Assembly (NCBI RefSeq): GCF_000372845.1
Contig: NZ_KB889964.1
Span: 1-64,000, forward strand
Direction of reading: 5' to 3'
DNA length: 64,000 bases
DNA from: Methylocystis rosea SV97
Lineage (GTDB): Bacteria > Pseudomonadota > Alphaproteobacteria > Rhizobiales > Beijerinckiaceae
A model generated the notes under the pieces. The model saw only the letters and a program-made list of their open reading frames with translations. It was not told the origin of the DNA and did no database searches. Both the position numbers and the translations under genes were made by a program. Below, one piece after another: positions 7,890 to 63,548 of this stretch (position 1 is the stretch's first letter; each line of letters begins with the position of its first letter).

Positions 7890-8636
7890 TCAAGTCGTTT
7901 TGGCTCCTTTGGCGCGGGCGCGGCGTAGGCTCTCGCCGACGAGTTCTACGCGATGCGCGTTGTGCACGAGGCGGTCCAAGATCGCGTCGGCGTAGGTGGG
8001 ATCGCCGATGACCTCATGCCATGAGGTCACGGGAAGTTGGGATGTGACGATCGTCGATCGGCGCCCATAGCGTTCTTCAAGGATTTCCAGGAGATCGTGG
8101 CGGGCGCCGGCGTCGAGCGGCTCGAGGCCGAAGTCGTCGAGGATCAGGAGATCGGCGCGGCCGAGGGATTTGATAAGACGCGGGTGGCGCCCGTCGCCGC
8201 GCGCGAGCGCAAGGTCTTCGCAGAGCTTCGGCCAGCGATGATAGACGACGGAACGGTTGTCGCGGCAGGCCTTCTGGCCAATGGCGCAAGCGAGCCAACT
8301 TTTGCCGTCGCCCGATGGGCCGACCAGAGCCAGATTGTTGGGGGCGTCGATCCACTGGCCTTCGGCGAGTTTCTGGAACAGGGCGCGGTCGAGCCCGCGC
8401 GCGGCGCGGTAGTCGACGTCTTCGATGCTGGCCTGCTGGCGGAGTTTTGCTGCGCGCAGCCTGGCCGTCAGCCGCTTGTCGCGTCGAAAAGACGCTTCTC
8501 AATCAAGCAGCAGAGCGAGCCAGTCGTTGCGGTCGATCCCTTTCGCCTCATCTGTCTCTGCGAGTTCGGCGAAGGCCTTGGCCATTCCGTAAAGGCCGAG
8601 GACGTGAAGCTGGTCGAGGGTGGGATGTTTAAGCAA
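7890..8636 (-). pseudogene. istB: IstB-like AAA+ transposition helper, one internal stop
   Basis: IS21 helper ATPase. Start taken as the TTG at 8636 because AGGAGA lies seven bases upstream, just after the istA stop. The N-terminal helical domain (HPTLDQLHVLGLYGMAKAF) is followed by a TGA at 8499-8501; the same frame then resumes with DKRLTARLRAAKL, Walker A ALVGPSGDGKSW, Walker B ADLLILDDFGL and sensor region STIVTSQLPVTSWHEVIGDP to the stop at 7890. Otherwise full length (about 248 codons). One substitution inactivates it. Confidence 0.8.
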
Positions 8637-8647
8637 GTCGCTGTCTC

Positions 8648-10195
8648 CTAATGATAGTAGCGCGGGCCGCGGATATTGGGGTGAAGGATCGGAGCCGCGT
8701 CCGCGGCACGCTTTGGCGCCGGCTTCCGATCGAGCTTGTTGTCGAGGATGGATTTGATCGAGCCGTAGGTCTTCGCGCCGATCTCGATGGCGCGTTCCGC
8801 TGCGGCCTCGACGCGCTCGGACCCATAGGGGCCGACAAGGCGGACGATGCCCAGACAAGCGCGATAGCCCTGCTCGGGATGGGGCCGCGTCTCCAAAATC
8901 TGCTCGCAGAGCGCCGCGGCCGCGGGGCCGATTTTGCGCGCATCTTCACGGATGCGCTCGATGGTCCAGCCGGCGTAGCGCCGGTGGCTCGATGGCATGT
9001 GCTCAGAGATCGTCGTGTGCTTGTGATTGCCGCTCATCCGCAGATGCACGGCGATACGTTCGCCTCGATAAAAAATCTCAACGCCGCGGACGGTCAGGCG
9101 CGCTTCGACCTCGGCGCGGGCGAAGCGATAGGGCACGGAGTAATAATGCGCGTCGATCTCGACGTGATAATCGATGCCGACGCGGTGCAGGCGCCATTCG
9201 CAATATTCGTAAGGCTCGACTGGAAGCGCCTTCAACGCCGGGCGGTCGATCTCGTCGAACAATTGGCGACGGGTGACGCCGAGCCGGCGGATGGGGCGCT
9301 CCTCGTTGAGAGTTTTCAGCATCCCGTCGATGGCGGCGTTGACCTCCGCAAGGCTGTAGAAGGTTTCGCGACGCAGCCTGCCGAGCAGCCAGCGTTCGAC
9401 GATCAGCACCGCCGATTCCACCTTCGCCTTGTCGCGCGGTTTTCTGGGCCGGGCCGGCAAAAGCGCGGCGCCGTAATGCGCCGCCATGTCGGCGTAGGTG
9501 CGGTTGACCTGTGGATCGTAGAAGCAGGCTTTGACGATGGCGGTCTTGGCGTTGTCCGGCACGATGAGCTGCGGAACGCCGCCGATCGCCTCAAGCGCGC
9601 CGACATGGGCGTCGATCCAGTCAGGAAGCGTCTGCGTCCAGCTCGCTCTCGCGAATGTGAGGCTCGACGCGCCCAGCACCGCGACGAATATCTGCCCCAT
9701 GCGCACTTCGCCGGTGAGCCTGTCGACGACGACGGGAACGCCGTCGCCGGCCTAATCGACGAACAGGCGCTCGCCGGCGGCGTGGGTCTGCCGCATGGTC
9801 ACCGACAGCGTTTTCTCGAAGGCGCGATACAGCTCGCAAAAGCGCGAATAGCGATAGCCGCCGGGGTTCTCGGCGATGTATTCGTCTCACAGGATCGTCA
9901 GGGTGACATGCTTGCGCTTCAGCTCGCGATGCACGTTTGCCCAGTCCGGCTCTTCGACGCGCCGGTGACCGCGCTTGCTGCGCCGGTTGGCGTAAAGCGC
10001 CGCCTCCAGCGCGTCGTCGTTCATTCCCTCCGGCAGCGGCCAGGAGAGCCCGGCGCCCTCCGCGCGTTCGAGCGCTTCCCGAACCGTCGAACGCGGCATG
10101 CCGAGACGCCGGGAAATCTCGTGCGCTGAAACCGACGCGGCCTTCAGCCGAATAATCTCGCGCGCCTGGCGCATCGTAATCCGCTCCGCTGGCAT
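8648..10195 (-). pseudogene. istA: IstA transposase of IS21, two internal stops
   Basis: 515 codons in a single frame with TGA at 9887-9889 (Trp expected in ILWDEY) and TAG at 9752-9754 (Tyr expected in VDYAGD). The N-terminus is an HTH (HEISRRLGMPRSTVREAL), then the rve integrase core with [14 protein letters not shown] and [15 protein letters not shown] as the second and third catalytic regions, and the Mu-transposase-like C-terminal domain. No frameshifts, only two point nonsense changes. It ends 11 bases before istB starts. Confidence 0.85.
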
Positions 10196-10429
10196 GAATC
10201 GCTCCCCTTGGATTGCCAAAGGAGCGACTTGATCAGGCCAACGGCGGCGACCGCCACTGCACGAAATCACCCGGGCGGGATCATTCCGTCGCAGGGGGGC
10301 GGGATCATCTCGGAATTGGGGGGCGCCATCATTCCGTAACGAGTGGGCGCCTTCATCTCGTTTTAGGGGGCGCCATCAAGCGGAATCAGCAGCAGCGTCG
10401 GGCGACACGCTGGAATTGATGCGTCCCAT

Positions 10430-10965
10430 GCCGCTTACGTGCGCGGGCCCTGTAGAGCGTCGCGGCGACGAATTACGGTTTGGCATTCGCCTTGCGCGCG
10501 ATGACCGGCGTTGAGCATGTATTGCATCGCTTGGGCGAGGTCGTGTCCGCGTGACAGCTTCGCGAACTGCTCTCGCATGTAAATCCCGAGCGTGTCGACC
10601 AGCGGCCGGCTCACGTCGCGACGAACAGCAAGGCGTTCCTCGGAACTCTTGCCATTGATCGTGCGATCGCGAACAGCGCGTCGATGCGGCGCACGATTTC
10701 CATAGCAATCGGCGAGAGCGGCTTTCCCTTTTTTACCGCCGCCTTGCGACGCGCGTTCGCCTCGATGTCGGCCATGGCGAAGAACGGCCGTCGCGCGTGG
10801 CTTCAGCACGTCGCCTCGCGGATCGGGCCGGGGGTGCGGTCGGCGAGATACAGCTTGTTGAAACCGTCGTACGCGTCCGCTTGCAAGATGCCCGAGTATC
10901 CCTCCAGATGGCTTTGTGGATGTTCGCCGCGACGATCACGCGAGTAGTAGAAGATCGCGGCCGGC
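10430..10965 (-). pseudogene. IS66-family transposase (TnpC) fragment
   Basis: Two frames together give GILQADAYDGFNKLY, EATCWAHARRPFF-like sequence, RTINGKSSEERLAVR and FAKLSRGHDLAQAMQYML, which are consecutive pieces of the IS66 transposase core and C-terminal half. At least one frameshift near 10805. Ends of the element are missing. Confidence 0.75.
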
Positions 10966-11059
10966 GAACCCGGCTCCGCCGAAACGGCGTGCATTCCTCG
11001 AAAAGATCGCGCGCGAAAACTCACGATTGTTCGTGCACTGGCAACTCGGCGCAAGCGGC

Positions 11060-11141
11060 AGGCTGGCCTGATGGGAGCCGGGTGAGGCGAGAGTCTCACG
11101 CCCGGTTCTGGAAGACGTAGAGGGTGAAAAACCCCTACTCG
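11060..11141 (+). ncRNA. Group II intron 3' end remnant (domains V and VI)
   Basis: Bases 11075-11110 fold as domain V: GAGCCGGG pairs with CCCGGTTC, and TGAGGC pairs with GTCTCA across a GAGA tetraloop, leaving the two-base CG bulge on the 3' side. The catalytic AGC triad sits at the expected start. Bases 11117-11140 form a domain VI-like hairpin (GTAGAGGG / CCCCTAC). Upstream intron domains and the maturase are not found. The 3' exon is an IS66 transposase piece on the same strand. Confidence 0.7.
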
Positions 11142-11220
11142 CCGACCGTGCCCGTGCTCGCGAAAGGCAAGACCGACACCGGCCGGTGCTGGGTCCATGT
11201 TCGTGACGACGCACGCAAGA
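11142..11220 (+). pseudogene. IS66-family transposase fragment (intron 3' exon)
   Basis: Encodes PTVPVLAKGKTDTGRCWVHV followed by RDD, the IS66 transposase core segment with the first catalytic Asp region. It is on the opposite strand to the fragment at 10430-10965, so the two come from different copies or an inversion. Confidence 0.65.
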
Positions 11221-11550
11221 GCTGGCCCAATTGTTTGGACAGCTCCCCGTGGATTTTGAGTGGATCTCTGCCGGATTTTGCTGAACGCGGGGCGTCTCGA
11301 TTTTGTCGGGGCGTCGGGAGATCGCCAAATCTGCGCGCCGAAACCGGTCTCGATCGCAAAAGCGCGGCATCCTTCACGGTGATTGGGTGGGTTTGAGCGG
11401 TATCGATAAAGTAATGTTATGAGATAGCAGCCCATCCCGACCCTCTCGTCCATCAAAGGCGCCGCCGCCAGCCGCCAGACATTGGGGGAGCGGTCGATTA
11501 CGTCGATCGCGATGGCGCGGGACGAGAAGCGCGGTCGTTACCGCGCGGTC
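11221..11550. other. No gene recognised
   Basis: About 330 bases between IS debris and the receiver pseudogene. I see no family motif, no RNA fold and no terminator. Confidence 0.4.
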
Positions 11551-11938
11551 CTAAGACTGAACTGAATCGAGCGCTCTACTACTTAACGCGGCCGCGATCG
11601 CGGCGCCTAACGCAACCCTGCTAAACGGCTTTTGCACGCTCGGCGCGCCTTCGAAGGACAGTTGAAAATTTGACTGTTGATATCCGGTTGCGAAAACAAG
11701 CGGAATCCTTCGGTCCCGTACGATCTGGGCAGCCGGAAAGCTCGCCACGCCGTTGAGATTAACATCCAAAATTGCGAGTCCATAGTCGGCTTCCGCCGCC
11801 AGTTGCAGCGCTTCTTCAATGCACCGCGCTTGCCCGGCGATCTCAAATCCAAGCTCGCTCAGGATGCTTCAAGCAGAAGCCCTACGAGGCTTCGTCCTCA
11901 ACCATCAATACTCGAATCTTTATGGCTGAGTCCGTCAT
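11551..11938 (-). pseudogene. Stand-alone receiver (REC) response regulator, decayed
   Basis: ATG at 11938, three bases after the upstream kinase stop, so last gene of the stressosome operon. Begins MTDSAIKIRVLMVEDEAS, then a TAG at 11882-11884 and a frameshift; the second half is intact with phospho-acceptor LAILDVNLNG, the conserved Thr/Ser region LVFATGY and Lys in VQKPF. No output domain follows. Such single-domain receivers commonly pair with HWE kinases, and this one was probably the target of the neighbouring kinase before it decayed. Confidence 0.7.
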
Positions 11939-11941
11939 CTC

Positions 11942-13312
11942 TCACTCGAAGTCGACAGGGGCGCTGATTGCGCAGGTAACGCCATCGGAGGAAAAGTCGA
12001 GGGATATTGTTCCCTTTAAGTCGCTGGCGAGCGACCTCTCGAGCAGCTTCGAGCCGAATCCGCGATGCGCCGGCGGCTCGACGAGGGGCCCTCCCGTTTC
12101 TTTCCAAATCAAGCTTAACCGCGGCAGGCCATTTTCACGTTCGATGCTCCAGCAAATGTTTACCTGCCCCTCACTGCTCGATAGAGCTCCGTATTTGAGC
12201 GCGTTTGTGCAAAGTTCATGCAATCCCATCGCGAGCGCTAACGCAGCTTTAGGCTTGAGTTGCAGATCGGGACCTTCCAGGCTGAATCTGTCGGCCGCTC
12301 CATGAATCTGCGCCGCCTTGACCACGAGCTCTCGAAGATCCGCAGCCCTCCAGCTGCCGCGCGTCAAGACATCGTGCGTTTCGGAAAGCGCGCAGAGCCT
12401 GCTTGCGAAGTCGTCGACCTTTTTCTGATCGACTTGGGCGCCTCTAAATGTCTGTGAGGCGATGGACTGCACGATTGTCAGTGTATTTTTCACCCGGTGG
12501 TCGAGTTCATGGATCAGCAGTTCTTTGTGCTCTTCAGCCCTCTTCCGGTCCGAAATATCGAGCGCCCAACAGCCTACAGCCGCGATGTCGTTCGAGGCGT
12601 CTCGCACGGGGAAAAACCCCGCCAACCAGTGCCGGTCGCCGGCGCTGGAGTGCTCGGAAAGCTCCACATGCCGCAAAGAAGCTCCTTTTGAGAATACCTC
12701 GCCGAGAGAATTTTCAAGAGAACTGGCGTTGTTTGGAAAGATTTCCCTGATCGTGTGGCCGATGTGGCCCTTCGCCTTGAGCGCGATGACGCCGGCGAAC
12801 TCATCGTTGATGCGCGTGCAGCGGCCCGCTTTGTCGAAAAACGCGAGCCCAATGGGCGCGCTACAGAGCAGCGCTTCCAACTCGAGGGTTCGAGCCAGAA
12901 GGCGTTCATTCGCAACACGCAGCTGATCCTCAGCGCTTTTTGCGCGTAGCAAGGCCCTGACCGTGGCGACCAGCACCGGCGCTTCCGCAGGCTCCACCAA
13001 ATATGCATCGGCGCCCGCGTCCAGCGCCGTTACCTTGGCGTCAGGCCCAATAAAGGTGGCCGAGGTCTGCAGCACCATGATGTCGGGCCGGGATCGCTTG
13101 ATCTCACGGCACACTTCCGTGCCCAAAATGTCGGGCAGCATCGTATCGAGAACGACGAGGTCCGTCGGGCGCGAGGCGACGAAGGCGAGCGTCTCCTCGC
13201 CGCTGCTCGTTTCACTGACTGACCAGCCCGCTTTTTGCAGCGCCCGCACCTTGGCGTAGCGCGCCTCGGCAACGTCGTCGACGACCAACAGACGGGCGCT
13301 TTCGACATTCAT
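11942..13312 (-). CDS. REC-PAS-HWE histidine kinase
   Basis: 456 residues, cytoplasmic. Residues 1-125 are a receiver domain with acidic pair Asp12/Asp13 and phospho-Asp56 (VVLDTMLP), but the conserved Lys after strand 5 is Glu (YLVEPAEAP). Residues 145-260 are a PAS domain. The HWE dimerisation box follows with His272 (ELDHRVKNTLTIVQSIA), then the ATPase N-box MGLHELCTNALKYGALS and the family-defining W-x-E (IWKETGGP). Its ATG overlaps the TGA of the hybrid kinase (ATGA), so it is translationally coupled to the stressosome operon. HWE kinases in alphaproteobacteria often feed PhyR of the general stress response; that link here is inferred. Confidence 0.9.
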   Translation of the reverse strand: MNVESARLLVVDDVAEARYAKVRALQKAGWSVSETSSGEETLAFVASRPTDLVVLDTMLPDILGTEVCREIKRSRPDIMVLQTSATFIGPDAKVTALDAGADAYLVEPAEAPVLVATVRALLRAKSAEDQLRVANERLLARTLELEALLCSAPIGLAFFDKAGRCTRINDEFAGVIALKAKGHIGHTIREIFPNNASSLENSLGEVFSKGASLRHVELSEHSSAGDRHWLAGFFPVRDASNDIAAVGCWALDISDRKRAEEHKELLIHELDHRVKNTLTIVQSIASQTFRGAQVDQKKVDDFASRLCALSETHDVLTRGSWRAADLRELVVKAAQIHGAADRFSLEGPDLQLKPKAALALAMGLHELCTNALKYGALSSSEGQVNICWSIERENGLPRLSLIWKETGGPLVEPPAHRGFGSKLLERSLASDLKGTISLDFSSDGVTCAISAPVDFE

Positions 13313-15435
13313 GTCTGGGCTCCCGCGCCGAGCGCCTCAGCCACCACAGGAGCGAGCGCCTCTTTCGACAGCCCGCTTTTGGCAATGACTTGCTTGGCGC
13401 TGCCGAGGCGTCCCAGATCCTGCTCATTCAAAGCTGTGGCCGTGACGACCACGATCGGGACCTGCGCTGTTTTTGGATTATCCGTTAGCCGCTCGAGCAC
13501 ATCGAAGCCGCTGATGCCTGGTAATTTGAGGTCGAGCAACACCAGATCCGGGGGCTGTTTGGCGGCGCTCTCCAGCCCGGCTTCGCCCGTCGCGGCTTCG
13601 CTGAGAACGTAGGGCTCGTCTGCGAGACACCGCCGAATGATATAACGCGAGGCTTCGTCGTCGTCGATCAGAAGGACGCGCTTTGCTTCTGTCTCGTCGA
13701 TCAATTCGTGCAGCTTGGCGAGGAGCCAGGCGCGTTCAATGGGCTTTATTCCATAGCCGTCAGCGCCGAGCCGCGCCGCTTTCGCGCGGTCCTCCATCGT
13801 GGAGACGACAAGAACGGGAATCCCCTGCGACTCCGACGCGCCCTTGAGATCGGCCAGCAGCGCCCAAGTGTCCGTGCCTCCAAGCACGAGATCGAGAATA
13901 ATCGCGCGAGGCTTGACGTCCTGAATTTTCCGCCGCGCCTCCTTCAAGGTTCGCGCGCCGATGAGCCTGTAAGGAGAGTGGCGCAGGGTGACCTCATAGA
14001 CCATCATGTCCGCAGGGTCGTCTTCGACCGCAAGAACCGGAATACGCTCGTCTTCCGGCGGCGGCTCGATCAAAGGCTCGGCAAGGTCCACCATGGGGCC
14101 AGCGTATGCTGCCGGCAGCGTAAACGAGAAGGTCGATCCCTTGCCCACCACGCTGTCGACGTGGATATCGCCGCACAAAAGCTTGCACAGCCGTTTCGAC
14201 AAGGGGAGCCCCAGTCCCGTGCCCCTCACTCTGCGCTGAATGGGGCCGTCAAGCTGTGAGAACTCCTGAAAAATGAGCTCATGATGCTCTGAGGCGATGC
14301 CAATGCCGTCGTCCTTAACCGTGAAAGTGAAACACCCCTCAGATAGTGAGGCCCTGACGCGAATTTCCCCTGCCTCGGTGAATTTCAGCGCGTTTGAAAT
14401 CAGGTTGCGCAGCACCTGCGAAATCTTGGCTTCATCGCTATACATCGCCGGCAGTGACGATGCGTCCTCGAATATGAGGTTGACCTTGTCTCCAACAAGC
14501 AGCGGCCGCAGCATGCCGCGCAAGGCGCCGAAGAGATCGCCAATCCGGAATTCGACGGGCCTAATCTCGATCCGGCCGGCCTCGACTTTGGCGAGATCGA
14601 GAAGGTCATTAACGAGTTCGGTCAGGTTCTCCGCCGATTTTCGGATGAACGAAATTTGGCGCTCCTGCTCAGGCATGAGCTCGCCGTCGCAGCGATCGAG
14701 TAGCAGGTGGGTCAGCGCCAATATCGAGTTGAGCGGCGTCCTGAACTCGTGAGTCATGTTGGAAAGAAAGCGAGATTTGAGGCTGTCCGCGCGCCGCAGA
14801 TGCTCCGCCTTTTCGTCGAGATCGGAATAAAGAGCGACCACCCCGCGGTTCGTGTCGTGTAATTCCTCGTTCAGTGAAGCCAGTTCCTTGCGCTGCCGTT
14901 CGACCTCCTCCAGACTGAAAATCAGCTCCTGATTCTGCCGACGCAGCTCGATCATTGGGTCGTTGGCGTCTTCCCTCAGCAGGCGATCGGAAATGTCCGC
15001 AAGATCAGAATGGGAAAACACCTTGGCCGTTCCAGGCAGCAGCTTTTTGAGAGCCACAACGGTGCCTGAACTGGACGACTGGATGGAAAACTGATCCACA
15101 AGCCGACGCGCGCCGATCAGCCCGACGCCCATGCCCGTGGTGGAGCGATGGCGCCCGGCAAGGACTTCTTCAAGGTTGGCGATCCCGGCGCCTTCGTCCG
15201 AGATGGTCGCCTGGAACAGTTGCGGCGACGTAGAACCCGCCAGCGAAAACTTGACGCACCCGCCGCCGCCATATTCAACGGCGTTGCGCGCGATCTCGGA
15301 CACCGCCGTCGCGATGCGGGTCTGATCCTGCCGGTCGAATCCAAGCAGTCCGGCAAGCTGGCGCGCGCGCTGGCGCGCAAAGACGATGTCCGGCTCGGCC
15401 TTCAAAGACACTGACAAAATGCGAAGCATTACCAC
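13309..15435 (-). CDS. Hybrid histidine kinase with N-terminal RsbT-like ATPase and two receivers
   Basis: 708 residues. Residues 1-135 are an RsbT/anti-sigma-type GHKL domain (TAVSEIARNAVEYGGGG, SDEGAGI, TGMGVGLIGARRL), followed by a coiled coil (about 160-220), a HisKA box with His229 (SNMTHEFRTPLNSI), a HATPase_c domain, and two receiver domains (first with AIILDLVLGG, second with LVLLDLKLPG). Fusion of an RsbT paralogue to a hybrid kinase ties it to the stressosome: the N-terminus could be recruited by or compete for RsbS/RsbR. GTG at 15435 or ATG at 15429 are both possible starts; the gene begins immediately after the phosphatase stop. Confidence 0.9.
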   Translation of the reverse strand: MVMLRILSVSLKAEPDIVFARQRARQLAGLLGFDRQDQTRIATAVSEIARNAVEYGGGGCVKFSLAGSTSPQLFQATISDEGAGIANLEEVLAGRHRSTTGMGVGLIGARRLVDQFSIQSSSSGTVVALKKLLPGTAKVFSHSDLADISDRLLREDANDPMIELRRQNQELIFSLEEVERQRKELASLNEELHDTNRGVVALYSDLDEKAEHLRRADSLKSRFLSNMTHEFRTPLNSILALTHLLLDRCDGELMPEQERQISFIRKSAENLTELVNDLLDLAKVEAGRIEIRPVEFRIGDLFGALRGMLRPLLVGDKVNLIFEDASSLPAMYSDEAKISQVLRNLISNALKFTEAGEIRVRASLSEGCFTFTVKDDGIGIASEHHELIFQEFSQLDGPIQRRVRGTGLGLPLSKRLCKLLCGDIHVDSVVGKGSTFSFTLPAAYAGPMVDLAEPLIEPPPEDERIPVLAVEDDPADMMVYEVTLRHSPYRLIGARTLKEARRKIQDVKPRAIILDLVLGGTDTWALLADLKGASESQGIPVLVVSTMEDRAKAARLGADGYGIKPIERAWLLAKLHELIDETEAKRVLLIDDDEASRYIIRRCLADEPYVLSEAATGEAGLESAAKQPPDLVLLDLKLPGISGFDVLERLTDNPKTAQVPIVVVTATALNEQDLGRLGSAKQVIAKSGLSKEALAPVVAEALGAGAQT

Positions 15436-16422
15436 TTACCCCAAGGCGCGCAACACGACCACGGTGGCGTCGTCTCGGCCCCGACGATAATCCCGCGCCA
15501 GCACTCCTGCGATAAGCGCCGGATGCGCCCCGAAAAGACCGGGATACTGTGCGACGTTCCAGCGCGCGGACAAGCCGTCGCTGTGCAGAATGATAACACC
15601 ACCCGGTGCCAGGCTATACTGAAAAGTACGGATGGTCGGGGTCCCGTTGCCGGCCATACCGTTATAGGATACGAGGCTCCGAGCTTCAGCTGCGCCGATG
15701 ATCGCGCCCGAAATGTTTCCCACGCCGCAGAATTCCACCTGGCCGCTCGCGACGGTCAAACGCGCAAGACCTACGGCTGCGCCTCTGGTCGGCCGAAGGC
15801 CCTGATGAATCCGCTCGACATGCTGCGCAACCGTCTGGTTCTTGCAAGAGGAGAACGTAGAGAGGGCGCGCGCCCCCGCTTCAGACGCAAAGGGTCCGTG
15901 TCCCGTTCCGTCCACCACGAGAACGTCGATCTTTCCTCCGTTCTCGGTGGCCGTCCATGCGTCGCCGCAGATGGATTCCCCCGGACATGTCACCACGACT
16001 GAGCCCGTCACGAATTGGGTCTTCGACGCTGCGCCGTTCCTGCGAAAACGCGCCAGAACCGCTGCGCCCATGGAAGGCTTCGAGTAGATGCCGAAGACAC
16101 TAGAGAGGCGCTGCGCAGCTCCCAGTCCCGAGCCGCGACTGCCAAAGGTCGAGTATCCATCGCCTAAACATTTTGCGACATCGACGAGCCCGGGCCCGCG
16201 ATCTAGCGCCATCAGCTCGACGCCCTGCCCGTCGGCATCGTCGAAGAGATTGATGGAAAACTCGCCCTTTCCCGCGTGTTTGAGGATGTTAGTCGCGAGT
16301 TCAGTGGCGACGATTGCTATTCTGCCGACCGCTTCCTCCGGAAAATCTTGTGACAACGCCAATTGCGTCGCCGCCCTGCGCACTTCCGCGACTCGCGAAG
16401 GATCATCCACCGGCAGCAGCAT
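15436..16422 (-). CDS. RsbT-like ATPase fused to SpoIIE/RsbX-type PP2C phosphatase
   Basis: 328 residues. The N-terminal 130 residues form a GHKL ATPase (IVATELATNILKHAGKGEF, LDRGPG, GSGLGAAQRL). The C-terminal 190 form a SpoIIE-like PP2C domain with metal-binding Asp in VLVVDGTGHG and the C-terminal DDATVVVL. In Bacillus the phosphatase RsbX resets the stressosome by dephosphorylating RsbS and RsbR; this position in the operon, directly after rsbT with one base between, supports the same feedback role. ATG at 16422. Confidence 0.9.
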   Translation of the reverse strand: MLLPVDDPSRVAEVRRAATQLALSQDFPEEAVGRIAIVATELATNILKHAGKGEFSINLFDDADGQGVELMALDRGPGLVDVAKCLGDGYSTFGSRGSGLGAAQRLSSVFGIYSKPSMGAAVLARFRRNGAASKTQFVTGSVVVTCPGESICGDAWTATENGGKIDVLVVDGTGHGPFASEAGARALSTFSSCKNQTVAQHVERIHQGLRPTRGAAVGLARLTVASGQVEFCGVGNISGAIIGAAEARSLVSYNGMAGNGTPTIRTFQYSLAPGGVIILHSDGLSARWNVAQYPGLFGAHPALIAGVLARDYRRGRDDATVVVLRALG

Positions 16423-16423
16423 G

Positions 16424-16849
16424 TTATTTCCAACGAATGAGCGAGATGCGGGTTCCCTCGCCCGGCTGCGATTTTATGTCGAACTCGTTGACGAGCCGCT
16501 TTGCGCCTCCCAAACCTAGCCCCAGCCCCCCGCCCGTCGTGAAATGATCGCTCATCGCCTGCTCAATGTCCGCGATGCCGGGACCTTCGTCTGAAAACGT
16601 CACTCGCAATCCTCGGCGCGCGCCGTCGCGAAGGATTTCCAAAAGCAGCTCGCCGCCTCCGCCATACTCGAAGGTGTTTCGTGCGATTTCGCTCGCGGCG
16701 GTAATGATTTTGGTCTGATCGATAAGGCTCATGCCCATTGCGTCAGCGTGAAAGCGGACTTTCTGCCTTACGCGAACAATGTCTTCCGAGCTTCGAATCG
16801 GAACGGTTTCAATCGTCTCCGTCAGCATCGGTCGACTCTGACTGCTCAA
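16424..16849 (-). CDS. rsbT: RsbT-type serine/threonine kinase (stressosome)
   Basis: About 134-141 residues, single GHKL ATPase domain. N-box TAASEIARNTFEYGGGGELL, G1 box FSDEGPGI, G2 GGGLGLGLGGAKRLVNEF. RsbT phosphorylates RsbS and RsbR in the stressosome and is released to activate a downstream partner. Two starts overlap rsbS: TTG at 16849 and ATG at 16828; neither has a strong ribosome site, suggesting translational coupling to rsbS. Confidence 0.93.
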   Translation of the reverse strand: MSSQSRPMLTETIETVPIRSSEDIVRVRQKVRFHADAMGMSLIDQTKIITAASEIARNTFEYGGGGELLLEILRDGARRGLRVTFSDEGPGIADIEQAMSDHFTTGGGLGLGLGGAKRLVNEFDIKSQPGEGTRISLIRWK

Positions 16850-17198
16850 TCAGCCTGTTGATCGTCTCCAGACCTTTATCAACGTTGCGGGCGGTCTGAA
16901 TGCCGCTCAGCTGAACGCCCAGCTCGACGAGGGTGATCGCGACGTGCGGCCGCATGCCCACGACAATGGTGACGGCGTCAAGCACCCGTGATGCGCTGGC
17001 TATGTTGCTCAGCATGCGGCCAATGAAGGAATCGACGATCTCGAGCGCGGAAACGTCAATCAACACGCCCTTGGCCCTGGTGGAAACAATCGCGTTGGTG
17101 AGATCGTCCTGCAGCGCCATGGCAAGGCGGTCATGCATGTCGATGTGAATTGTGACGAGAAGGCACTTGCCAACTTTGAGGATCGGGATCTTGTCCAC
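16809..17198 (-). CDS. rsbS: RsbS stressosome scaffold (STAS domain)
   Basis: 129 residues, one STAS domain. The phosphorylatable serine motif ALEIVDSFIGRMLSN matches the region of Ser59 in Bacillus RsbS, and RPHVAITLVELGV is the typical fourth helix. RsbS and RsbR form the 1.8 MDa stressosome core that sequesters RsbT. It starts four bases after rsbR ends, and its 3' end overlaps rsbT. Confidence 0.94.
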   Translation of the reverse strand: MDKIPILKVGKCLLVTIHIDMHDRLAMALQDDLTNAIVSTRAKGVLIDVSALEIVDSFIGRMLSNIASASRVLDAVTIVVGMRPHVAITLVELGVQLSGIQTARNVDKGLETINRLIEQSESTDADGDD

Positions 17199-17202
17199 CG
17201 CA

Positions 17203-18063
17203 TCAGCCTCGCGCCGCTATGCGTTCCACCTTCTGACCCGTCTTTTTCAATGCCAGCGACAGGGCATCCGCCATCGTCGCTTTGGAGACCACCTGAAGAT
17301 CGAGTCCCAGATGGACGATCGTCTGGGCGATTTGCGGACGGATGCCGCTGATGATGCAATCTGCGCCCATCAGCCGCGCCGCCGCCACCGTCTTGATCAA
17401 ATGCTGCGCGACCAACGTATCGACGGCCGGCACTCCCGTGATATCGATGATGGCGATTTCCGCCTCCGCGTCGACGATCATTTGTAGAAGATTCTCCATC
17501 ACGGTCTGCGTGCGGGCGCTATCGAGTGTGCCTATGAGCGGCAGCGCGAGAATCTTGTCCCAAAGCTGGATGACCGGAGTCGACAGCTCCAATAATTCGT
17601 CCTGTTGACGTTTGATGACCTCTTCGCGGCTCTTCTGATAAACCTCGGTGGTAAATAAGCCGAGGCGATCGAGAAGCCCCCCCGAGGCGACCAGCACGTC
17701 GGCTAGGCGCTCTTCGCGCGCTAGAGTTTGCCGCAGGAGATCAAAAAGCGGCTCTTTCAGCGAGAACACGAATAGCGCGGTCTCGACGGGACTGTATCCG
17801 CGCAGCGCTCGGGCCGTCGAAATCTCTTCGAGCACCTCACGCGCGTTTTGCCACTGTTCGCTGGAGATATCTTCGCCGGCGCCATTTTTAATGGCATTGC
17901 GCAGCTCGTTTAGGAATCGCCCGCAGGCGTCCTTCAAATCCTTATCGGACGTCTGACCGCTGCGCGTGGCGCCCGCCGCGGTCAGCGCCGCGATCCATCG
18001 GCGAAGCAGGTCTTTCTCGCTCTGTTCGATAGCGCTCGCGAGCGCGTCAAAGTTTGCAGGCAT
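17203..18063 (-). CDS. rsbR: RsbR stressosome sensor (globin-like N-terminus plus STAS)
   Basis: 286 residues from the ATG at 18063, preceded by GAGGAAG. The first 150 residues are all-helical, like the non-heme globin sensor half of RsbRA; residues about 165-275 are the STAS domain. Both Bacillus RsbRA phosphorylation contexts are conserved: LIGTLDSAR (Thr171 equivalent) and DITGVPAVDT (Thr205 equivalent). First gene of the minus-strand operon, divergent from a Crp/Fnr gene. Signal sensed unknown; I see no heme-ligand or PAS signature that would name it. Confidence 0.93.
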   Translation of the reverse strand: MPANFDALASAIEQSEKDLLRRWIAALTAAGATRSGQTSDKDLKDACGRFLNELRNAIKNGAGEDISSEQWQNAREVLEEISTARALRGYSPVETALFVFSLKEPLFDLLRQTLAREERLADVLVASGGLLDRLGLFTTEVYQKSREEVIKRQQDELLELSTPVIQLWDKILALPLIGTLDSARTQTVMENLLQMIVDAEAEIAIIDITGVPAVDTLVAQHLIKTVAAARLMGADCIISGIRPQIAQTIVHLGLDLQVVSKATMADALSLALKKTGQKVERIAARG

Positions 18064-18237
18064 GATTCTTCCTCGAATGACTGGCACGATTGAGTAATTT
18101 GGCTCCGATTGCAATTTCAGCCGCGGAGGGAAAATGGATGCACTTTTTTTGCAGACGGCTCGGTGCACGGAGGATCTCGGGGGGCGCCGGAGAACCTAGG
18201 CTCGGAAGAATTTGCTATATGAAAACCAAAGCCGAGT

Positions 18238-18255
18238 CTGTTCACTTGTGAACAG
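18238..18255. promoter_or_regulatory. Perfect palindrome in the divergent stressosome / Crp promoter region
   Basis: CTGTTCACTTGTGAACAG, 8-bp arms around TT, lying 175 bases before rsbR and 95 bases before the Crp/Fnr start. Probably an operator for a dimeric regulator; whether it is the neighbouring Crp/Fnr protein cannot be told from the sequence. Confidence 0.5.
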
Positions 18256-18349
18256 TTGCTACAGGGGCTACAGATGAAATACTGAATTTCTCGTTCTAGA
18301 CAACACAGGGTTGCGTGCTCTAAGGACCTGTTTGAGGGAGATCCCGCGC

Positions 18350-19135
18350 GTGCAATTTCTTCCTCCTGATGCGCAATCCCGAAGCCTGTCGCTCAGAAGC
18401 AATCTTTTAAGGGCGTTGCATCCTGCGGACCTTGCCCTCCTGTCCCCAAAATTCGAAAAGGTGCAACTTGCTCCTCGGCAGGTTTTATATCAGCCCGGCG
18501 ACGATATTCGCCACGTCTATTTCCCCTGCGGATCGACTTTGCTGTCTTTCATCATTCCTCTAGAAAACGGCAAGGACGTCGAGGCAGCGTTAATAGGACG
18601 CGAGGGGGCGCTAGGAGGAATCGTTAGCCATGGACGGTTGCCAGCCTATGCGAGAACGGTCGTTCATTTTGAAGGCCCCGCGCTCCGATTGGAGTGTTGC
18701 GAACTGGAAAAGGCGAAGACGCAATCGTTGACACTCCGGCAGTTGTTCGCCCGTTACGCTGATTGCCTCTTGGCGCAGGTGTTCCAGAGCGTGGCGTGCA
18801 ATGCGACGCATTCGATCGAAAAGCGTGCGGCGAAATGGCTTCTAGCGGCGATGGATCGCACAAACGACCCGACAATTGCGATGACGCAAGAACAGTTGTC
18901 CGGAATGCTCGGAGTCGGGCGCAGCTATGTGGCCAGGGTTATAAGGACGCTTAAGGATCGCCGGTTGATCGACATCGGATACGGACGCTTCATTGTTCTA
19001 GATGAGGAAGGCCTCCGGCACACGGCATGCGACTGCAATGAGCTTGTCAATCGTCATTTCAACGAAGTTCTTAAAGGCGTTTATCCTTCAGGATCAAATC
19101 CGAGCGCGCCCGAAGATCAAGCCTTGGATCTGTAA
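18350..19135 (+). CDS. Crp/Fnr-family transcriptional regulator
   Basis: 261 residues. N-terminal cyclic-nucleotide-binding-like beta barrel (about 30-150) with LYQPGDDIRHVYFPCGSTLL, dimerisation helix, then Crp-type winged HTH (ATIAMTQEQ-like start, QLSGMLGVGRSYVARVIRTL). The GTG at 18350 is chosen because GAGGGAG precedes it; a TTG at 18311 would add 13 residues. It lacks the N-terminal Cys cluster of oxygen-sensing FNR. Divergent from the stressosome operon across 286 bases containing an 18-bp palindrome, so it may regulate that operon (inference). Confidence 0.85.
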   Translation: MQFLPPDAQSRSLSLRSNLLRALHPADLALLSPKFEKVQLAPRQVLYQPGDDIRHVYFPCGSTLLSFIIPLENGKDVEAALIGREGALGGIVSHGRLPAYARTVVHFEGPALRLECCELEKAKTQSLTLRQLFARYADCLLAQVFQSVACNATHSIEKRAAKWLLAAMDRTNDPTIAMTQEQLSGMLGVGRSYVARVIRTLKDRRLIDIGYGRFIVLDEEGLRHTACDCNELVNRHFNEVLKGVYPSGSNPSAPEDQALDL

Positions 19136-19631
19136 ACAGATACTCGTTCGGCACCGTATAAACTGACGCGAGGCGTTGCTTCGGGTGAAGAGAGGAGTGT
19201 GGACGTGATCGCCGGGTCTGAGGCGGTCGACTGGGATGCGATGCCCGAGAAGATTCCCCTTCATAAAACCTGGAATGGTTAGCTGTCGCGGCTTGTCGGG
19301 AGGCTATTAAGGAGAAAGGGTTGTTGGGCGCGTTTCGGGCTGCGCTATACCGGCCTTGCGAGCGGAGCTCGCCTTGCTGTCGTGCCTCACCTTCACAAGA
19401 ATCAGGACGCGCTTTTTTTGACTTTGCGTCTTTTAAAAATCGAGTACGATTTGCGATGGCCGTGCGCGGGGGAGCCGCCGGCGATTACGGCGGGCGCGCT
19501 CCCGGCGCCGATTTTTCGACGTTCCGCATTCGCCGGAGTCCACCTCGGCGCGCTAGCGGTTTCGCGTAGCTGCTCCCCAAGTTTGAGCCAGTCGGCGACG
19601 TAGGGGTTATTCTGCGCTTGATGAGGAGTGA
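19136..19631. other. No gene recognised
   Basis: About 500 bases with short open frames but no family motifs or ribosome sites; Arg-rich frames at 19321-19600 look like GC-bias artefacts. Confidence 0.4.
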
Positions 19632-19949
19632 ATGGAAACGGTGCACAAAAGCGCAGTTACGCGCGCTGACCTCCGGGCGGCTGTTTATGCCTGTTGTGGC
19701 GGCATGGCGCGACGCGAGGCCCGCAATATCGTCGATCTCGTTCTGGAGGAGATCGCCTCGGCGCTAGTGAACTGCGAACCCGTCAAACTGCGAGGTTTCG
19801 GGGCGTTCAAGGTGCGCAACAAGAGCGCTAGGATCGGCCGCAATCCGAAGACGAAGACGCCGGCGCCAATCGCGGCGCGCCGGATTTTGACCTTCAGAGC
19901 TTCGCCGGTACTTATCGCCCGGATCAATCATGTGCCGAAACGATTATGA
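19632..19949 (+). CDS. HU/IHF-family DNA-bending protein (IHF alpha-like)
   Basis: 105 residues from the ATG at 19632 with GAGGAG seven bases upstream. The core matches IHF/HU: helical N-terminus (TRADLRAAVYACCGGMARRE), VKLRGFGAFKVRNK beta region and the DNA-intercalating arm ARIGRNPKTKTPAPI. The GRNPKT motif is the IHF/HU signature. Plasmid-borne paralogues of IHF alpha are common in alphaproteobacteria; chromosomal ihfA is longer in its conserved context, so no strict gene name is given. Confidence 0.88.
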   Translation: METVHKSAVTRADLRAAVYACCGGMARREARNIVDLVLEEIASALVNCEPVKLRGFGAFKVRNKSARIGRNPKTKTPAPIAARRILTFRASPVLIARINHVPKRL

Positions 19950-20054
19950 AGGAAGCGCTGTTCACCTTGTGAAGTGCCTGGAAAGGCCGCCGCGCAGGCA
20001 TCGTCCTGGGTCCATCGGCGGTCGTAGCTGAGGCGCTGGGCGGGGAGTTCAGCC

Positions 20055-20800
20055 ATGAAGGTCGATAACGCCTGTCTGCTGGTCGTCGACGATATCGCCG
20101 AAGCGCGCTACGCCAAGGTGCGGGCGCTGCAAAAGGCGGGCTGGTCGGTCAGTTAGCCGAGCGGCGGCGAGGAGACGCCCGCCTTCGTCGCCTCGCGCCA
20201 GACGGACCTCGTCATTCTCGAGGCGATGCTACCCGACATTCTGGGCACGGACGTGTGTCGAGAGATCAAGCGCAAGCGGCCCGACATCATCGTCATGGAT
20301 GTCTGCTCTCGAGGCGGGCGCCAATGCGTATTTGGTGGAGCCTGCGGAAGCGCCGGTGCTGGTCGCTACGGTCACGGCTTTGTTATGCGCCAAAAGCGCT
20401 GAGTATCAGCTCCGTGTCGCGAATGAACGCCTCCCTCGCTCGAACTCTTGAGTTGGATGCGCTTCTCTGAAGCGCGCCTATTGGGCTCGCGTTTTTCGAC
20501 TCGCGCATCAACGACGAGTTCAACCGGCATCAGCGCGCGCGCGGCGAAGGGAAAAAATCCGTCGCACGGTCGCAGAATTGCAAACAGCGCCAGTTCTCTA
20601 GCAAAGATCGTGGCAGAGATTTTAATCAACGGGGACCGCTTTGCGGAATGTGGAGCTTCCGAAGGCTCCGACGCTGTTAGGGGCAGTGAATGACCGGGTT
20701 TTTTCCCCCTGCGAGACGCCTCGAACGGCATCACGGCTGTAGGCTGTTGCGCGGTCGATATTTTGGTGGCCGTCGACGAGGAGCGGGAAGCGTGGCCGAT
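20055..20800 (+). pseudogene. Decayed second copy of the REC-PAS HWE kinase
   Basis: From the ATG at 20055 it matches the N-terminus of the kinase at 11942-13312 almost codon for codon (LLVVDDIAEARYAKVRALQK, then AFVASRQTDLVIL and LPDILGTDVCREIK), interrupted by a TAG near 20156 and several frameshifts. Nucleotide similarity resumes near 20400 (YLVEPAEAP region) and near 20700 (PAS end). The H-box and ATPase are gone. It is in opposite orientation to the intact gene 7 kb away. Confidence 0.75.
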
Positions 20801-21071
20801 CTTTTCGAGCGGAAGCTGGAAGGACTGCAGTTCGCCAACTGAAGCCTTAAAGCCGTGAGGGCACAAATTCGAAAACCTTTGCGCAAAACTCAAAGACTCG
20901 CGACGTGTCACGTCACGCTGCTACTGCTGCTCACATACCTTCTTCTCGGCATCTGTATCGCAGCTGCCGTTATTATTCCAAATAAATTAGTTCTAAGCTG
21001 AGACTTCGTTATGAAGAAAATATCTTATTGCAAAACCTGCGCTGCTATTGCTGTTAAGATAATATAAATGA

Positions 21072-21097
21072 GGAACATAGTTGGATTAATAAACGTT
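21072..21097 (+). promoter_or_regulatory. EcfG-type promoter of the NepR-like gene
   Basis: GGAAC, 17 bases, CGTT: an exact match to the alphaproteobacterial general-stress consensus, with the -10 element 29 bases before the ATG at 21126. Confidence 0.75.
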
Positions 21098-21125
21098 CTT
21101 ACGTTTCTAACGCGAGGTCATTCTC

Positions 21126-21314
21126 ATGCGGCGTAATGAAAAACAAGAACAGGCGCAGGCTAAACTTATAACAGACAATCTGAGCCAGTTGATCTCGATT
21201 GGAAACCTTCTGAGGGAAAACTTTTCCAACGCCCCGCACGAGCCGCTAACGGAAGAGATGCAGTGGCTTTTGAGGATGCTGAACGCAAGAATGTTCAGCC
21301 CAAACGATAAGTGA
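21126..21314 (+). CDS. NepR-like anti-sigma factor
   Basis: 62 residues from the ATG at 21126, ribosome site GAGGT. After a charged N-terminus the core reads ISIGNLLRENFSNAPHEPLT followed by EEMQWLLRMLNA, matching the NepR two-helix pattern IG..LR..(Y/F).....EP.P....LL..L. NepR binds EcfG until phosphorylated PhyR displaces it. The size is normal for NepR, and an exact EcfG-type promoter lies upstream, as expected since nepR genes are usually under their own sigma factor. Divergent from canonical NepR in having EPLTEE rather than EPVPDR, so the call is provisional. Confidence 0.6.
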   Translation: MRRNEKQEQAQAKLITDNLSQLISIGNLLRENFSNAPHEPLTEEMQWLLRMLNARMFSPNDK

Positions 21315-21423
21315 CTATTCCGTCGTCGCCCATGCCAGACAGGTAACCGCGAAGATACAGCGCTCTTGCAACTACCCTCGGGTTCACCCCTACCCCGGGC
21401 CGATCAGATCGGCGAGCCTGGTC

Positions 21424-21449
21424 GGAACAATTTTAAATTCCAGCTGGTT
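21424..21449 (+). promoter_or_regulatory. EcfG-type promoter of the csbD gene
   Basis: GGAAC, 17 bases, GGTT, about 30 bases before the ATG at 21478. Confidence 0.65.
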
Positions 21450-21477
21450 TACCCTCGGTCAGCTAGGGAGAACCATT

Positions 21478-21864
21478 ATGTCGGTAATTCATGTTCCTCG
21501 TGGCGCGCTTTTAGTTATCGGCGGCGCCTTTGCCTTCAGCACGGCGTGCTTCGCCGCCGATACGCAAAAATGGGCGCCGCCCAATGTCGTTGGCATGCCG
21601 GGGTACACTCCCCAGGAGCCGGAGCGCGCTTCCCAAGGCCGAGAGCCTGCCGTGCGTCAGTCCATCCCCAATTGGAGTGTTATCTCCGGAGGCTGGAAAC
21701 AGTTTTCAGGTAAGGTCAAAGAGCAATGGGGTCGTCTTACGGATGACGAGCTTGTCCAGATCAACGGCAAGCGGGAAAGTTTGGAAGGGATGCTTCAGCA
21801 AAAGTATGGATACACGCAGGAGGAAGCAAAGAAAGAAGTTGATACTTGGGTGTCACGTAACTGA
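21478..21864 (+). CDS. Exported CsbD-family stress protein
   Basis: 128 residues, ATG at 21478 with AGGGAG upstream. Residues 1-27 are a signal peptide (cleavage likely after ACFA). A Pro-rich linker is followed by the CsbD domain (about 70-126: GGWKQFSGKVKEQWGRLTDD, KRESLEGMLQQKYGYTQEEA). CsbD proteins are small general-stress proteins; most are cytoplasmic, so the signal peptide is unusual. An EcfG-type promoter upstream and a terminator directly after make it a single-gene unit. Molecular role unknown. Confidence 0.9.
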   Translation: MSVIHVPRGALLVIGGAFAFSTACFAADTQKWAPPNVVGMPGYTPQEPERASQGREPAVRQSIPNWSVISGGWKQFSGKVKEQWGRLTDDELVQINGKRESLEGMLQQKYGYTQEEAKKEVDTWVSRN

Positions 21865-21883
21865 AAGTCGCGCGCCCTCGAAA

Positions 21884-21911
21884 AGCCCCGCTCAGAAGGC
21901 GAGGCTTTTTT
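21884..21911 (+). terminator. Intrinsic terminator after csbD
   Basis: AGCC-CCGC / GCG-AGGCT stem with loop TCAGAAG, then TTTTTT. Confidence 0.65.
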
Positions 21912-22199
21912 CTGCTGATGCGTAAAGCGGCCATCCCGTCGTTGAGCGCAATCAATATGCATCCCGGCAAGCCGATCCACCGCTTTGGCTGCGCCCGGAG
22001 CTACGAGGTCGAAGGCGCCTACGACGGTCCCCAACTTTAACGCCCCGCGCGCTCGTCTCGGGCCCCGGGCCAGCTTTTTTCATGCGCTGCTGCCCTGGCC
22101 AGCTAAACGCGGGGCTGGCCCTGGCTTCTTCTGTCTTCCAAGAGGGGCGCCGCGCGCATGTCCGGGGCTCAAGAAATAGTGCCGCGCCGCGCGCTTGCT

Positions 22200-62181: not shown

Positions 62182-63548
62182 CCCGCTTGCCGACGTTCCC
62201 GCGCCGCCTTTGCCGCCTTGCCGCGCAGCAGCGCCATCAGCACCGGCCCCAGCGAAAACTCCCCTTCCCTCGCCTTCCCGGTCAAAACGCGCAAATAGCC
62301 GCCGGCGGATTTGATTTCCTCCCCCCGCTGCAGGATCGCGGCGATGACGATCGAGGCGTCATGCTCGCCCAGAACGTCGAGCGCCTGTTTCCAGGCGTCT
62401 GGCGAGACGCCGAGCGCCGAGCGCACGATCGCCGCCGCGTCGACCAGATCACGCCAGCAGGAAATCTCCCCGCTCTTGCCGTAATCGACAATGTCGGGGC
62501 AGGCTTGCAGCACCATGCCGAGCGGATAGGTTCGCGTCGACGACGCTTGCCGTTCCCCAATTTCCGAACCGCGACTCTCGGTTGTTGAGGCCCCTGCACT
62601 GTCCGCTTCCGGCTCTTCCGGCATTGACCCGGGCGGTTCGGCCCTGCCTTTTCGAAGGCTAGGTTCAAGATCAGGAATGTTTGTGATTTGATTCTGTATA
62701 TGGCGCTCAGTTTGAGACTCATTGGCGCTTCTTTTTTGCTGATTCACGTGCGTTTCGAGCAACTTCTGGATTTCGCCCGCCAGGGCCGCCAATTCCCCCG
62801 CCAAAGCCTCCAGCTCCGCCCGTCCGAGGCTTCGCGAATAGCGCGCCGAAAGGGCCTGGTAGCGCCCGTAAAGGCCTTCCCAGTCGCCAATCTCCTGCCC
62901 GTCGATCGAGACCAGCGCGAAGCGAACGCCCTCCTCGATGCCGGTCTCGATCATCTTGACTATGTCGCGCCGAACCAACGTGATCTTCTCGCGCAGCAGA
63001 GCGATGGCGTGGTTTTCAATGCGCACTTCTTCGGCGAGGTTTTCGATCTCGGCCGCGCGCGCGATCAGCGGCGCAAGATCGAAGCCGAAGGCTTCCGCGA
63101 TCTCACCCCCCTGCCCGCGCCGTGCGAAACGTTTGCCGTTTGGGGAGTCCCGCCGGATGATCAACCCCGCCTCGACGAGCGAGGCAAGATGCCGGCGCAG
63201 CGTCGCCGGCGCCATGCCATGCGCGCGGATCGAGAGCTCCCGGTTCGACGGAAACACCACGATCCCGGGCGCAGGCGAATCCCCTTCCTCTTCCCCGCCG
63301 GCGCCCTCTGGCAGCGTCAGCGCTGTTTCCTGGTGAAAGCTCAGCAAGGCGTGCAGGACCGACAGCGCCCGATCGGTGACGCCGAGCGGTCCCTTGGCTT
63401 CCGTGAGCGCTCGAAACAGTCGCCATTTATGGACGACGGTTTCGGAGGCGTGGAGTTTTGCCGCGAAATCCCGCGTCGCCGCCTGCGTCGCCACCATGGC
63501 GAGCGACAACGGCCGCCGCCCAAAGGGCGTCGTTGAATGTGTGCGCAT
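62178..63548 (-). CDS. repC: RepC replication initiator of a RepABC plasmid
   Basis: 456 residues from the ATG at 63548. N-terminal winged-helix initiator domain (VHKWRLFRALTEAKGPLGVT, RALSVLHALLSFHQETALTL, VFPSNRELSIRAHGMAPATL, RRHLASLVEAGLIIRRDSPN), a coiled-coil middle, and the C-terminal RepC domain (YPLGMVLQACPDIVDYGKSG, EISCWRDLVDAAAIVRSALG, ILQRGEEIKSAGGYLRVLTG). RepC binds oriV, which in this plasmid class lies inside repC itself in an AT-rich stretch; bases around 62650-62740 are the most AT-rich part. Downstream of repB as expected. Confidence 0.95.
   Translation of the reverse strand: MRTHSTTPFGRRPLSLAMVATQAATRDFAAKLHASETVVHKWRLFRALTEAKGPLGVTDRALSVLHALLSFHQETALTLPEGAGGEEEGDSPAPGIVVFPSNRELSIRAHGMAPATLRRHLASLVEAGLIIRRDSPNGKRFARRGQGGEIAEAFGFDLAPLIARAAEIENLAEEVRIENHAIALLREKITLVRRDIVKMIETGIEEGVRFALVSIDGQEIGDWEGLYGRYQALSARYSRSLGRAELEALAGELAALAGEIQKLLETHVNQQKRSANESQTERHIQNQITNIPDLEPSLRKGRAEPPGSMPEEPEADSAGASTTESRGSEIGERQASSTRTYPLGMVLQACPDIVDYGKSGEISCWRDLVDAAAIVRSALGVSPDAWKQALDVLGEHDASIVIAAILQRGEEIKSAGGYLRVLTGKAREGEFSLGPVLMALLRGKAAKAARERRQAG

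Follow-up and report, generated by a model that had tools for sequence, protein, structure and literature searches.

A 64,000-nucleotide stretch of Methylocystis rosea SV97 (contig NZ_KB889964.1, positions 1 to 64,000; hereafter the window) carries a run of six genes that we read as an RsbR-RsbS-RsbT-RsbX (RSTX) stressosome with a His-Asp phosphorelay as its output. On this reading, RsbT freed from the stressosome would act on a helical linker in the first of two downstream histidine kinases, and the RsbT-like domains fused to the phosphatase and to this kinase would dock on the stressosome core; we put its probability at about 0.5. Judged from its genes and their relatives, the module itself is real, widespread and coherent.

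A stressosome core followed by two histidine kinases

The list of open reading frames (ORFs) and the Pfam matches place six open genes in one run from 18063 to 11942 on the minus strand, followed by the remnant of a seventh:

17203..18063, minus strand: rsbR, RsbRD_N sensor domain and STAS domain (PF14361 and PF01740), phospho-acceptor contexts at T162 and T209
16809..17198, minus strand: rsbS, single STAS domain (PF01740), Ser57 in the context VDSFIG
16424..16849, minus strand: rsbT, GHKL Ser/Thr switch kinase (PF02518/PF13581), TTG start with an ATG at 16828, overlapping rsbS
15436..16422, minus strand: rsbX-type phosphatase, RsbT-like N-terminus and SpoIIE/PP2C domain (PF13581 and PF07228), in the same place in relatives
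13309..15435, minus strand: kinase 1, RsbT-like domain (about residues 5-136), helical linker, HisKA, HATPase_c, REC and REC (Pfam)
14794..14874, minus strand: linker of kinase 1, residues 188-214, with TNRGVVALYSDL; proposed RsbT grip site, best conserved among the regions compared
11942..13312, minus strand: kinase 2, REC, PAS and HWE histidine kinase (PF00072, PF08448, PF07536)
11617..11917, minus strand: remnant of a single-domain REC gene, readable in two frames, from tblastn with the protein of a relative (L069)

In Pfam terms the six products read RsbRD_N+STAS; STAS; HATPase; HATPase_c_2+SpoIIE; HATPase_c_2+HisKA+HATPase_c+REC+REC; and REC+PAS+HWE. Neighbouring genes overlap or lie 0-4 bases apart: rsbS and rsbT share 41 bases with the TTG start and 20 with the ATG, and the two kinase genes share 4. 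Among the NCBIfam matches listed (for the kinases, the best 25 of 154 and the best 25 of 87), none was above cut-off for any of the six proteins. The acceptor residues are nearly invariant in alignments that include the window, T162 of RsbR being kept in 101/102 sequences and T209 in 102/102, and S57 of RsbS being Ser in 100/104 and Thr in the other four. With the ATP-site residues of RsbT also intact, the three adjacent genes make up an RsbRST module at the gene level, and kinase 1 carries the acceptor His of HisKA, HATPase_c and REC that mark a hybrid kinase. An earlier sequence-only reading had described just this arrangement, namely adjacent rsbR, rsbS and rsbT with conserved Thr and Ser contexts, then an RsbT/SpoIIE fusion, a hybrid kinase with an RsbT-like N-terminus and an HWE kinase at overlapping or near-zero spacing, and the Pfam matches and alignments bear it out. 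It had overlooked that the N-terminus of RsbR is of the RsbRD type, where the RSTX modules of Heinz 2022 have a globin. The phosphatase gene stands directly 3' of rsbT, as in those modules, with an RsbT-like N-terminus in addition. No RsbU_N domain (PF08673) was matched in the window's own genome, and hence no RsbRSTU arrangement of the sigma-B type, which agrees with the earlier remark that RsbU is absent.

The gene order is kept across eight phyla

A scan of GTDB yielded 589 confirmed stretches, from which the best 80 were kept by likeness to the kinase N-terminus, neighbouring genes playing no part in the choice. With domains called by eight profiles built for the purpose (PAS and GAF were not among them), the order R, S, T, X, kinase is kept in 75 of the 80 loci, spread over eight phyla, and it is thus more than chance; conservation of the order in relatives had been named beforehand as a test of the proposal. 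Three of the five exceptions (L079, L099, L148) are cut off within the operon by the end of their contig, in L075 an additional ORF was called that overlaps the others, and L133 shows none of R, S and T. The loci fall in Pseudomonadota (47), Acidobacteriota (12), Cyanobacteriota (12), Rokuibacteriota (3) and Nitrospirota (3), with one each in Planctomycetota, Binatota and Fidelibacterota. Kinase 1 is followed by a REC-kinase in 71/80, by a lone or cut REC in 4, by a split HisKA-REC in 1 and by an absent or cut gene in 4, one of which (L106) has a REC-kinase ahead of rsbR. Plasmid MP1 of Deinococcus radiodurans holds the same six-gene order.

Nearer to M. rosea, a query of the RsbT-like domain and linker matched 11/297 genomes of the order, its own included, with the same gene order in several of the fetched stretches. 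A query of the linker and the start of HisKA, run on a 398-genome sample of the phylum, found 14 other genomes at E <= 1.7e-18 (next match 2.5e-13), and 14/14 have the kinase in a complete RSTX operon, 6 fused to an RsbT-like domain and 8 unfused. RsbT alone, a query free of the linker, found 16 others in the same sample at E <= 3.3e-40, all 16 with a linker kinase after RSTX; they are the same 14 and two more (G174, G196), whose kinases likewise hold the linker. RsbT was found in 37 of the 398 genomes, 20 of them with weaker matches (E 7e-34 to 1e-15) and no linker match at E <= 1.7e-18; the outputs of these 20 lie mostly outside the comparison, and the 16/16 holds for close relatives of RsbT. 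The linker and HisKA query also gave 24 plasmid records at E <= 1e-9, 23 of them from genera of the operon search and one an Azospirillum HAMP protein; four of these neighbourhoods were inspected.

Kinases with and without an RsbT-like domain share one linker

The conserved kinase linker reads TNRGVVALYAEL. Over 59 aligned kinases the mean share of the top residue was 0.90 in the linker (residues 188-213), 0.79 in the DHp region and 0.68 in the RsbT-like domain, in a sample biased by the linker motif [DE]TNRGVVAL having been one of the two GTDB scan patterns; because the linker served as a scan pattern, its conservation in the 80 loci is partly circular. In the same alignment H229 of HisKA is kept in at least 90% and E230 is invariant. 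T-N-x-G-[VI]-[VI]-A occurs in 90/90 RsbT-like/HisKA fusions (loci L055-L148, L180-L192), and T-N-[RQ]-G in eight more kinases, which came from longer queries that include the linker; the RsbT search is the sole linker-free check. The linker is missing from three RsbT-HWE fusions, which come after R-S-T-X in three genomes of the order (L058, L059, L061).

Eleven kinases that have no RsbT-like domain keep the linker (L060, L066, L068 and the eight from the linker search), and all 11 stand directly after RSTX. In nine of them just 15-81 residues precede the linker stretch; the other two ORFs, with 140 and 189 residues ahead of it, extend into the phosphatase gene; for L066, one of the two, the annotation gives a shorter gene of 320 residues. 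Most unfused kinases thus have little space for a sensor, and input should therefore reach the linker from outside. Since they hold the same operon place with the same linker, the RsbT-like domain appears dispensable for the output role. On the kinase tree the unfused kinases required two changes of state; the tree dropped 9/102 rows, one by a length limit and eight for want of the usual DHp motif after the linker, a filter that was too narrow, as four of the eight have HEFRSP.

An AlphaFold2 model of residues 1-294 of kinase 1 (mean predicted local distance difference test score 90.6, predicted template modelling score 0.65) comprises a GHKL domain, a short helix (142-154) and a single helix (160-246) spanning both the linker and the first helix of DHp. 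In Foldseek its best solved matches were SpoIIAB and RsbW, with histidine kinases next, and by sequence alone SpoIIAB was again the first match.

In one further locus (L062:7988-10548) a lone RsbT homologue adjoins a GGDEF-like protein with a kinase-like linker, ELDETYRGVTQLTNELE; the 12 kb fetched around it contained nothing else recognisable as a stressosome gene, and a search of plasmids for this extension of the linker to a GGDEF protein gave no match at E <= 1e-5.

The three RsbT-like domains fall into groups by role

A FastTree phylogeny of 271 RsbT-like domains (two ORFs skipped, domains under 95 residues excluded) groups them by role, with 89/92 RsbT, 90/90 RsbX and 89/89 kinase domains in place; local support is 0.98 for RsbT, 1.00 for RsbX and only 0.56 for the kinase group, and the three RsbT outliers come from two divergent loci. 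Given these role-specific groups, the fusion of an RsbT-like domain to a kinase probably goes far back, specialisation of the domains having preceded their observed spread.

At the ATP site, 105/105 RsbT and 93/93 kinase domains retain the E, N, D and G residues, as do, bar one G, 103 RsbX domains; the Arg equivalent to R19 of Bacillus subtilis RsbT is present in 103/105, 93/93 and 103/103, respectively. An SE[LI]ARN box is common to RsbT and the kinase copy; its Arg is mostly Thr in RsbX. The groups part at D101 of the window's RsbT, the counterpart of B. subtilis D92: Asp stands at this place in 99% of the 87 RsbT encoded in operons with a fused kinase, in 11/11 from unfused ones and in 97% of 90 RsbX copies, whereas the kinase copies have Gly in 100% of 90 (98% of 89 with the RsbT-HWE fusions counted). 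Other RsbT residues are no longer present in the copy carried by the phosphatase. R20 of SpoIIAB is among the residues thought to bind STAS partners. Because the presumed STAS-binding residues are kept and the Asp of RsbT is missing, the fused domain of kinase 1 may well dock on the stressosome core.

The three domains therefore do not look interchangeable. The sequence-only reading had cast the two extra domains as competitors for the same scaffold; both are indeed present, but the three role groups, the Gly for Asp in the kinase and the residues lost in RsbX speak against equivalent domains. We also considered whether RsbT beside unfused kinases has taken on features of the fused domain, and rejected it: over 14 discriminating positions in 11 such RsbT, the mean share was 0.88 RsbT-like and 0.08 kinase-like.

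A proposed mechanism and its alternatives

In B. subtilis, RsbU is switched on when RsbT makes its helical linker rigid, and a contact between R91 of RsbU and D92 of RsbT is backed by charge swaps, RsbU R91E abolishing activation and RsbT D92K partly restoring it; the RsbT residues named are R19, R23, N24 and D92 (PMC12143880). In the window's RsbT, R28, R32 and D101 align with R19, R23 and D92 at a constant offset of nine, with N24 unmatched, and T195-x-R197-G198 in the kinase 1 linker has spacing identical to T89-x-R91-G92 of RsbU. The match of these Arg and Asp residues, the T-x-R-G spacing and the short pre-linker region of the unfused kinases lead us to favour RsbT acting on the linker. 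At rest, RsbT would be held by RsbR and RsbS; stress perceived at the RsbRD-type domain would cause RsbT to phosphorylate both and depart. Free RsbT would then grip the linker of kinase 1, much as B. subtilis RsbT acts on that of RsbU, and lock a coiled coil that permits autophosphorylation. From there phosphate would reach both the REC domains of the same kinase and the REC at the N-terminus of kinase 2, setting the activity of the HWE kinase, and RsbX would reset RsbR and RsbS. The extra RsbT-like domains would be specialised for STAS docking, the RsbX copy bringing the phosphatase to the core and the kinase 1 copy keeping the kinase there, next to its activator.

Several observations weigh against this mechanism, besides the bias of the 59-kinase sample and the Gly of the kinase copies given above. 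R197 is Gln in 6/11 unfused kinases, while the Asp stays in all 11 partner RsbT. The coiled-coil register of the kinase linker, read from spacing, seems to be one residue off from that of RsbU. Of 13 proteobacterial RsbU_N loci, found in 8 of 249 genomes, 12 gave readable text, two of these with a match to just part of the domain, and T-x-R-G was absent after RsbU_N in 12/12; because such proteins lack the motif, the likeness of the linker to B. subtilis RsbU may be chance. We accordingly rejected T-x-R-G as a general RsbT-binding code, and the parallel, drawn from B. subtilis RsbU, gives weak support. Heinz et al. obtained no positive interaction between Vibrio RsbT and its downstream kinase (PMC9237108). 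Because its terminal REC gene is broken, the output of the window's operon may be impaired. The earlier idea that the signal is handed to a phosphorelay thus stands in part: the conserved order, the fused and unfused kinases with one linker and the lack of an RsbU_N match in the genome speak for it, but the kinase's own RsbT-like copy lacks the linker-contacting Asp.

That copy is central to a different account, in which the kinase serves as its own RsbT: its RsbT-like domain would be held by RsbS and RsbR, stress would free the whole kinase, and the separate RsbT would phosphorylate the core only. The retained ATP-site residues and Arg equivalents of R19 (93/93) and R23 (92% of 89) fit such a role, as does the resemblance of the model to SpoIIAB and RsbW, binders of STAS partners; yet unfused kinases occupy the same operon place with the same linker, and Gly replaces the RsbT Asp in the kinase copy, so that we hold this account to be rather unlikely. 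Alternatively, the main task of the domain might be Ser/Thr phosphorylation of RsbS or RsbR, through which the phosphorelay would feed back on the sensor. Catalytic-type residues kept in 93/93 kinase copies go beyond the needs of a passive docking domain, but in partner-switching anti-sigma factors ATP binding governs docking, and it may do just that here; we consider such feedback quite improbable. Mere co-transcription of the kinases, without a physical tie to the stressosome, or decay of the plasmid copy would suit the broken terminal REC gene, as well as the presence at 20021-20290 of an incomplete, degenerate duplicate of the junction between kinase 1 and kinase 2. Against this, the order is conserved over eight phyla, the six main genes are open, and close RsbT relatives and the linker kinase occur together in 16/16 genomes, which makes it very improbable. 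Returning to RsbT acting on the linker, a fuller version, which we offer tentatively and think somewhat doubtful as a whole, unites Ser/Thr partner switching and His-Asp phosphorelay in one complex, with the stressosome storing a sensor-less kinase through its built-in RsbT-like domain until freed RsbT clamps the linker (TNRGVVALYAEL), the HWE kinase possibly feeding PhyR-NepR-sigma-EcfG in some Alphaproteobacteria.

Relation to known stressosomes

A close published counterpart is the RSTX module of Vibrio vulnificus, which shares rsbR-S-T-X followed by two-component genes (VvD1/VvD2), no RsbU gene in the module and a presumed His-Asp output. It differs in its globin-sensor RsbR, for which the window has RsbRD_N, and in its single-domain RsbX phosphatase; RsbT-like domains stand on both RsbX and the kinase in the window, and none is described for the Vibrio kinase in the excerpts of PMC9237108 and PMC10014275. 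The Vibrio authors proposed that RsbT transiently phosphorylates the kinase (PMC9237108). RSTX modules with HisKA/REC outputs, some with RsbU_N, were described there by Heinz 2022, and proteobacterial RsbU_N histidine kinases in stressosome operons resemble the present family in their RsbT-linked output and proposed coiled-coil linker (PMC9237108, PMC12143880); those kinases carry RsbU_N, where ours carry an RsbT-like domain or the linker alone. The RsbRST-RsbU-sigma-B system of B. subtilis has the same R/S/T core with acceptor sites and an output driven via a helical linker (PMC12143880), but ends in a PP2C phosphatase and a sigma factor, its target carrying the RsbU_N that was not found in the window's genome.

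In D. radiodurans, MP1 shares the six-gene order, the RsbT-like/HisKA fusion and the REC-kinase, its kinase 2 being of the HisKA type where that of the window is HWE. From place and annotation, we infer that the old tags DR_B0028 and DR_B0029 are the two kinase genes of this operon. DR_B0028 was more abundant after vacuum exposure, together with DR_0997 of the Crp/Fnr family (PMC6501615), and co-regulation with an adjacent anti-sigma-type operon has been proposed for DR_B0028/29 (Makarova 2001, as cited in PMC6501615).

In Moorella thermoacetica the stressosome (Quin 2012, as cited in PMC4976288 and PMC12143880) reportedly works without a sigma factor, RsbT driving the diguanylate cyclase MtG; this output combines RsbU_N with GGDEF and has no histidine kinase, unlike that of the window.

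The claim that the arrangement is uncharacterised needs narrowing: PMC9237108 reports HisKA/REC outputs for RSTX modules and PMC6501615 mentions the Deinococcus kinases, but no description of the RsbT-like/HisKA fusion was found in the PMC literature searched, including the excerpts of PMC10014275, PMC4976288, PMC3999984, PMC6848086, PMC8363230, PMC12189002, PMC8115616, PMC2887360 and PMC12154155, and Pane-Farre 2005 or Makarova 2001 may hold an earlier account. As far as these excerpts go, stressosomes with two-component outputs are established and the family of RsbT-like fusions is the added element.

Genomic setting and possible routes of the signal

The operon lies on the second of two contigs, 365,446 bases long, which is likely a plasmid because it carries a RepC gene (62184-63548), as the sequence-only reading had supposed; the RepC gene suggests the repABC type. 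A gene for a Crp-type regulator (18311-19132) diverges from rsbR, and a Crp/Fnr gene likewise lies near a Sphingomonas plasmid operon. Transposase-like genes (integrase core, Mu-type C-terminal domain, helix-turn-helix) occupy 8648-10270, about 1.7 kb past the end of the operon. Of the relatives fetched, Methylocystis sp. L43 (L069) stands nearest, being 98% alike over the kinase N-terminus. At the DNA level (window 8001-22000, E <= 1e-10) the likeness to it covers 11585-18081, that is, the operon and the REC remnant, and a 271-base piece at 20021; the flanks differ. This piece is the degenerate junction copy (20021-20290, plus strand), 88% identical in DNA to the L069 kinase 1/kinase 2 junction region.

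The broken seventh gene downstream of kinase 2, a lone REC that the earlier reading had overlooked, has an intact counterpart of 120 residues in Methylocystis sp. L43 (L069:12505-12864). The second kinases of the 71 loci that have one all start with REC. In their catalytic part two of them (L069 and L085) are of the HWE type, like those of the window and L060, and the remaining 69 of the HisKA type; the REC is therefore the constant receiver. Because PhyR-type matches above cut-off at two places and five NepR matches occur on the chromosome of the window's own genome, a path from the HWE kinase to the alphaproteobacterial general stress response is possible. No phyR was recognised from the first residues of the ORFs flanking the three RsbT-HWE fusion operons, where no profile search was made. 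Nor was a common effector neighbour seen among the 14 largest clusters of 2,418 flanking ORFs from up to 107 loci (L055-L148, L180-L192), the most frequent, classed by eye, being a LysR regulator (17 loci), an ABC ATPase (12) and a dehydrogenase (12).

Implications

How the signal of RsbT travels without RsbU is the question that this kinase family addresses. It offers a concrete candidate site, a 26-residue linker that the kinases have in common whether or not an RsbT-like domain is fused to them, and the fused and unfused systems form natural pairs for comparison. If the HWE route is true, PhyR-NepR-sigma-EcfG would locally take the part that sigma-B control plays elsewhere. Should RsbT indeed act on the linker, a single rule would hold for stressosomes that work through phosphatases, histidine kinases and perhaps cyclases, and Ser/Thr signalling would be seen to connect directly with His-Asp signalling.

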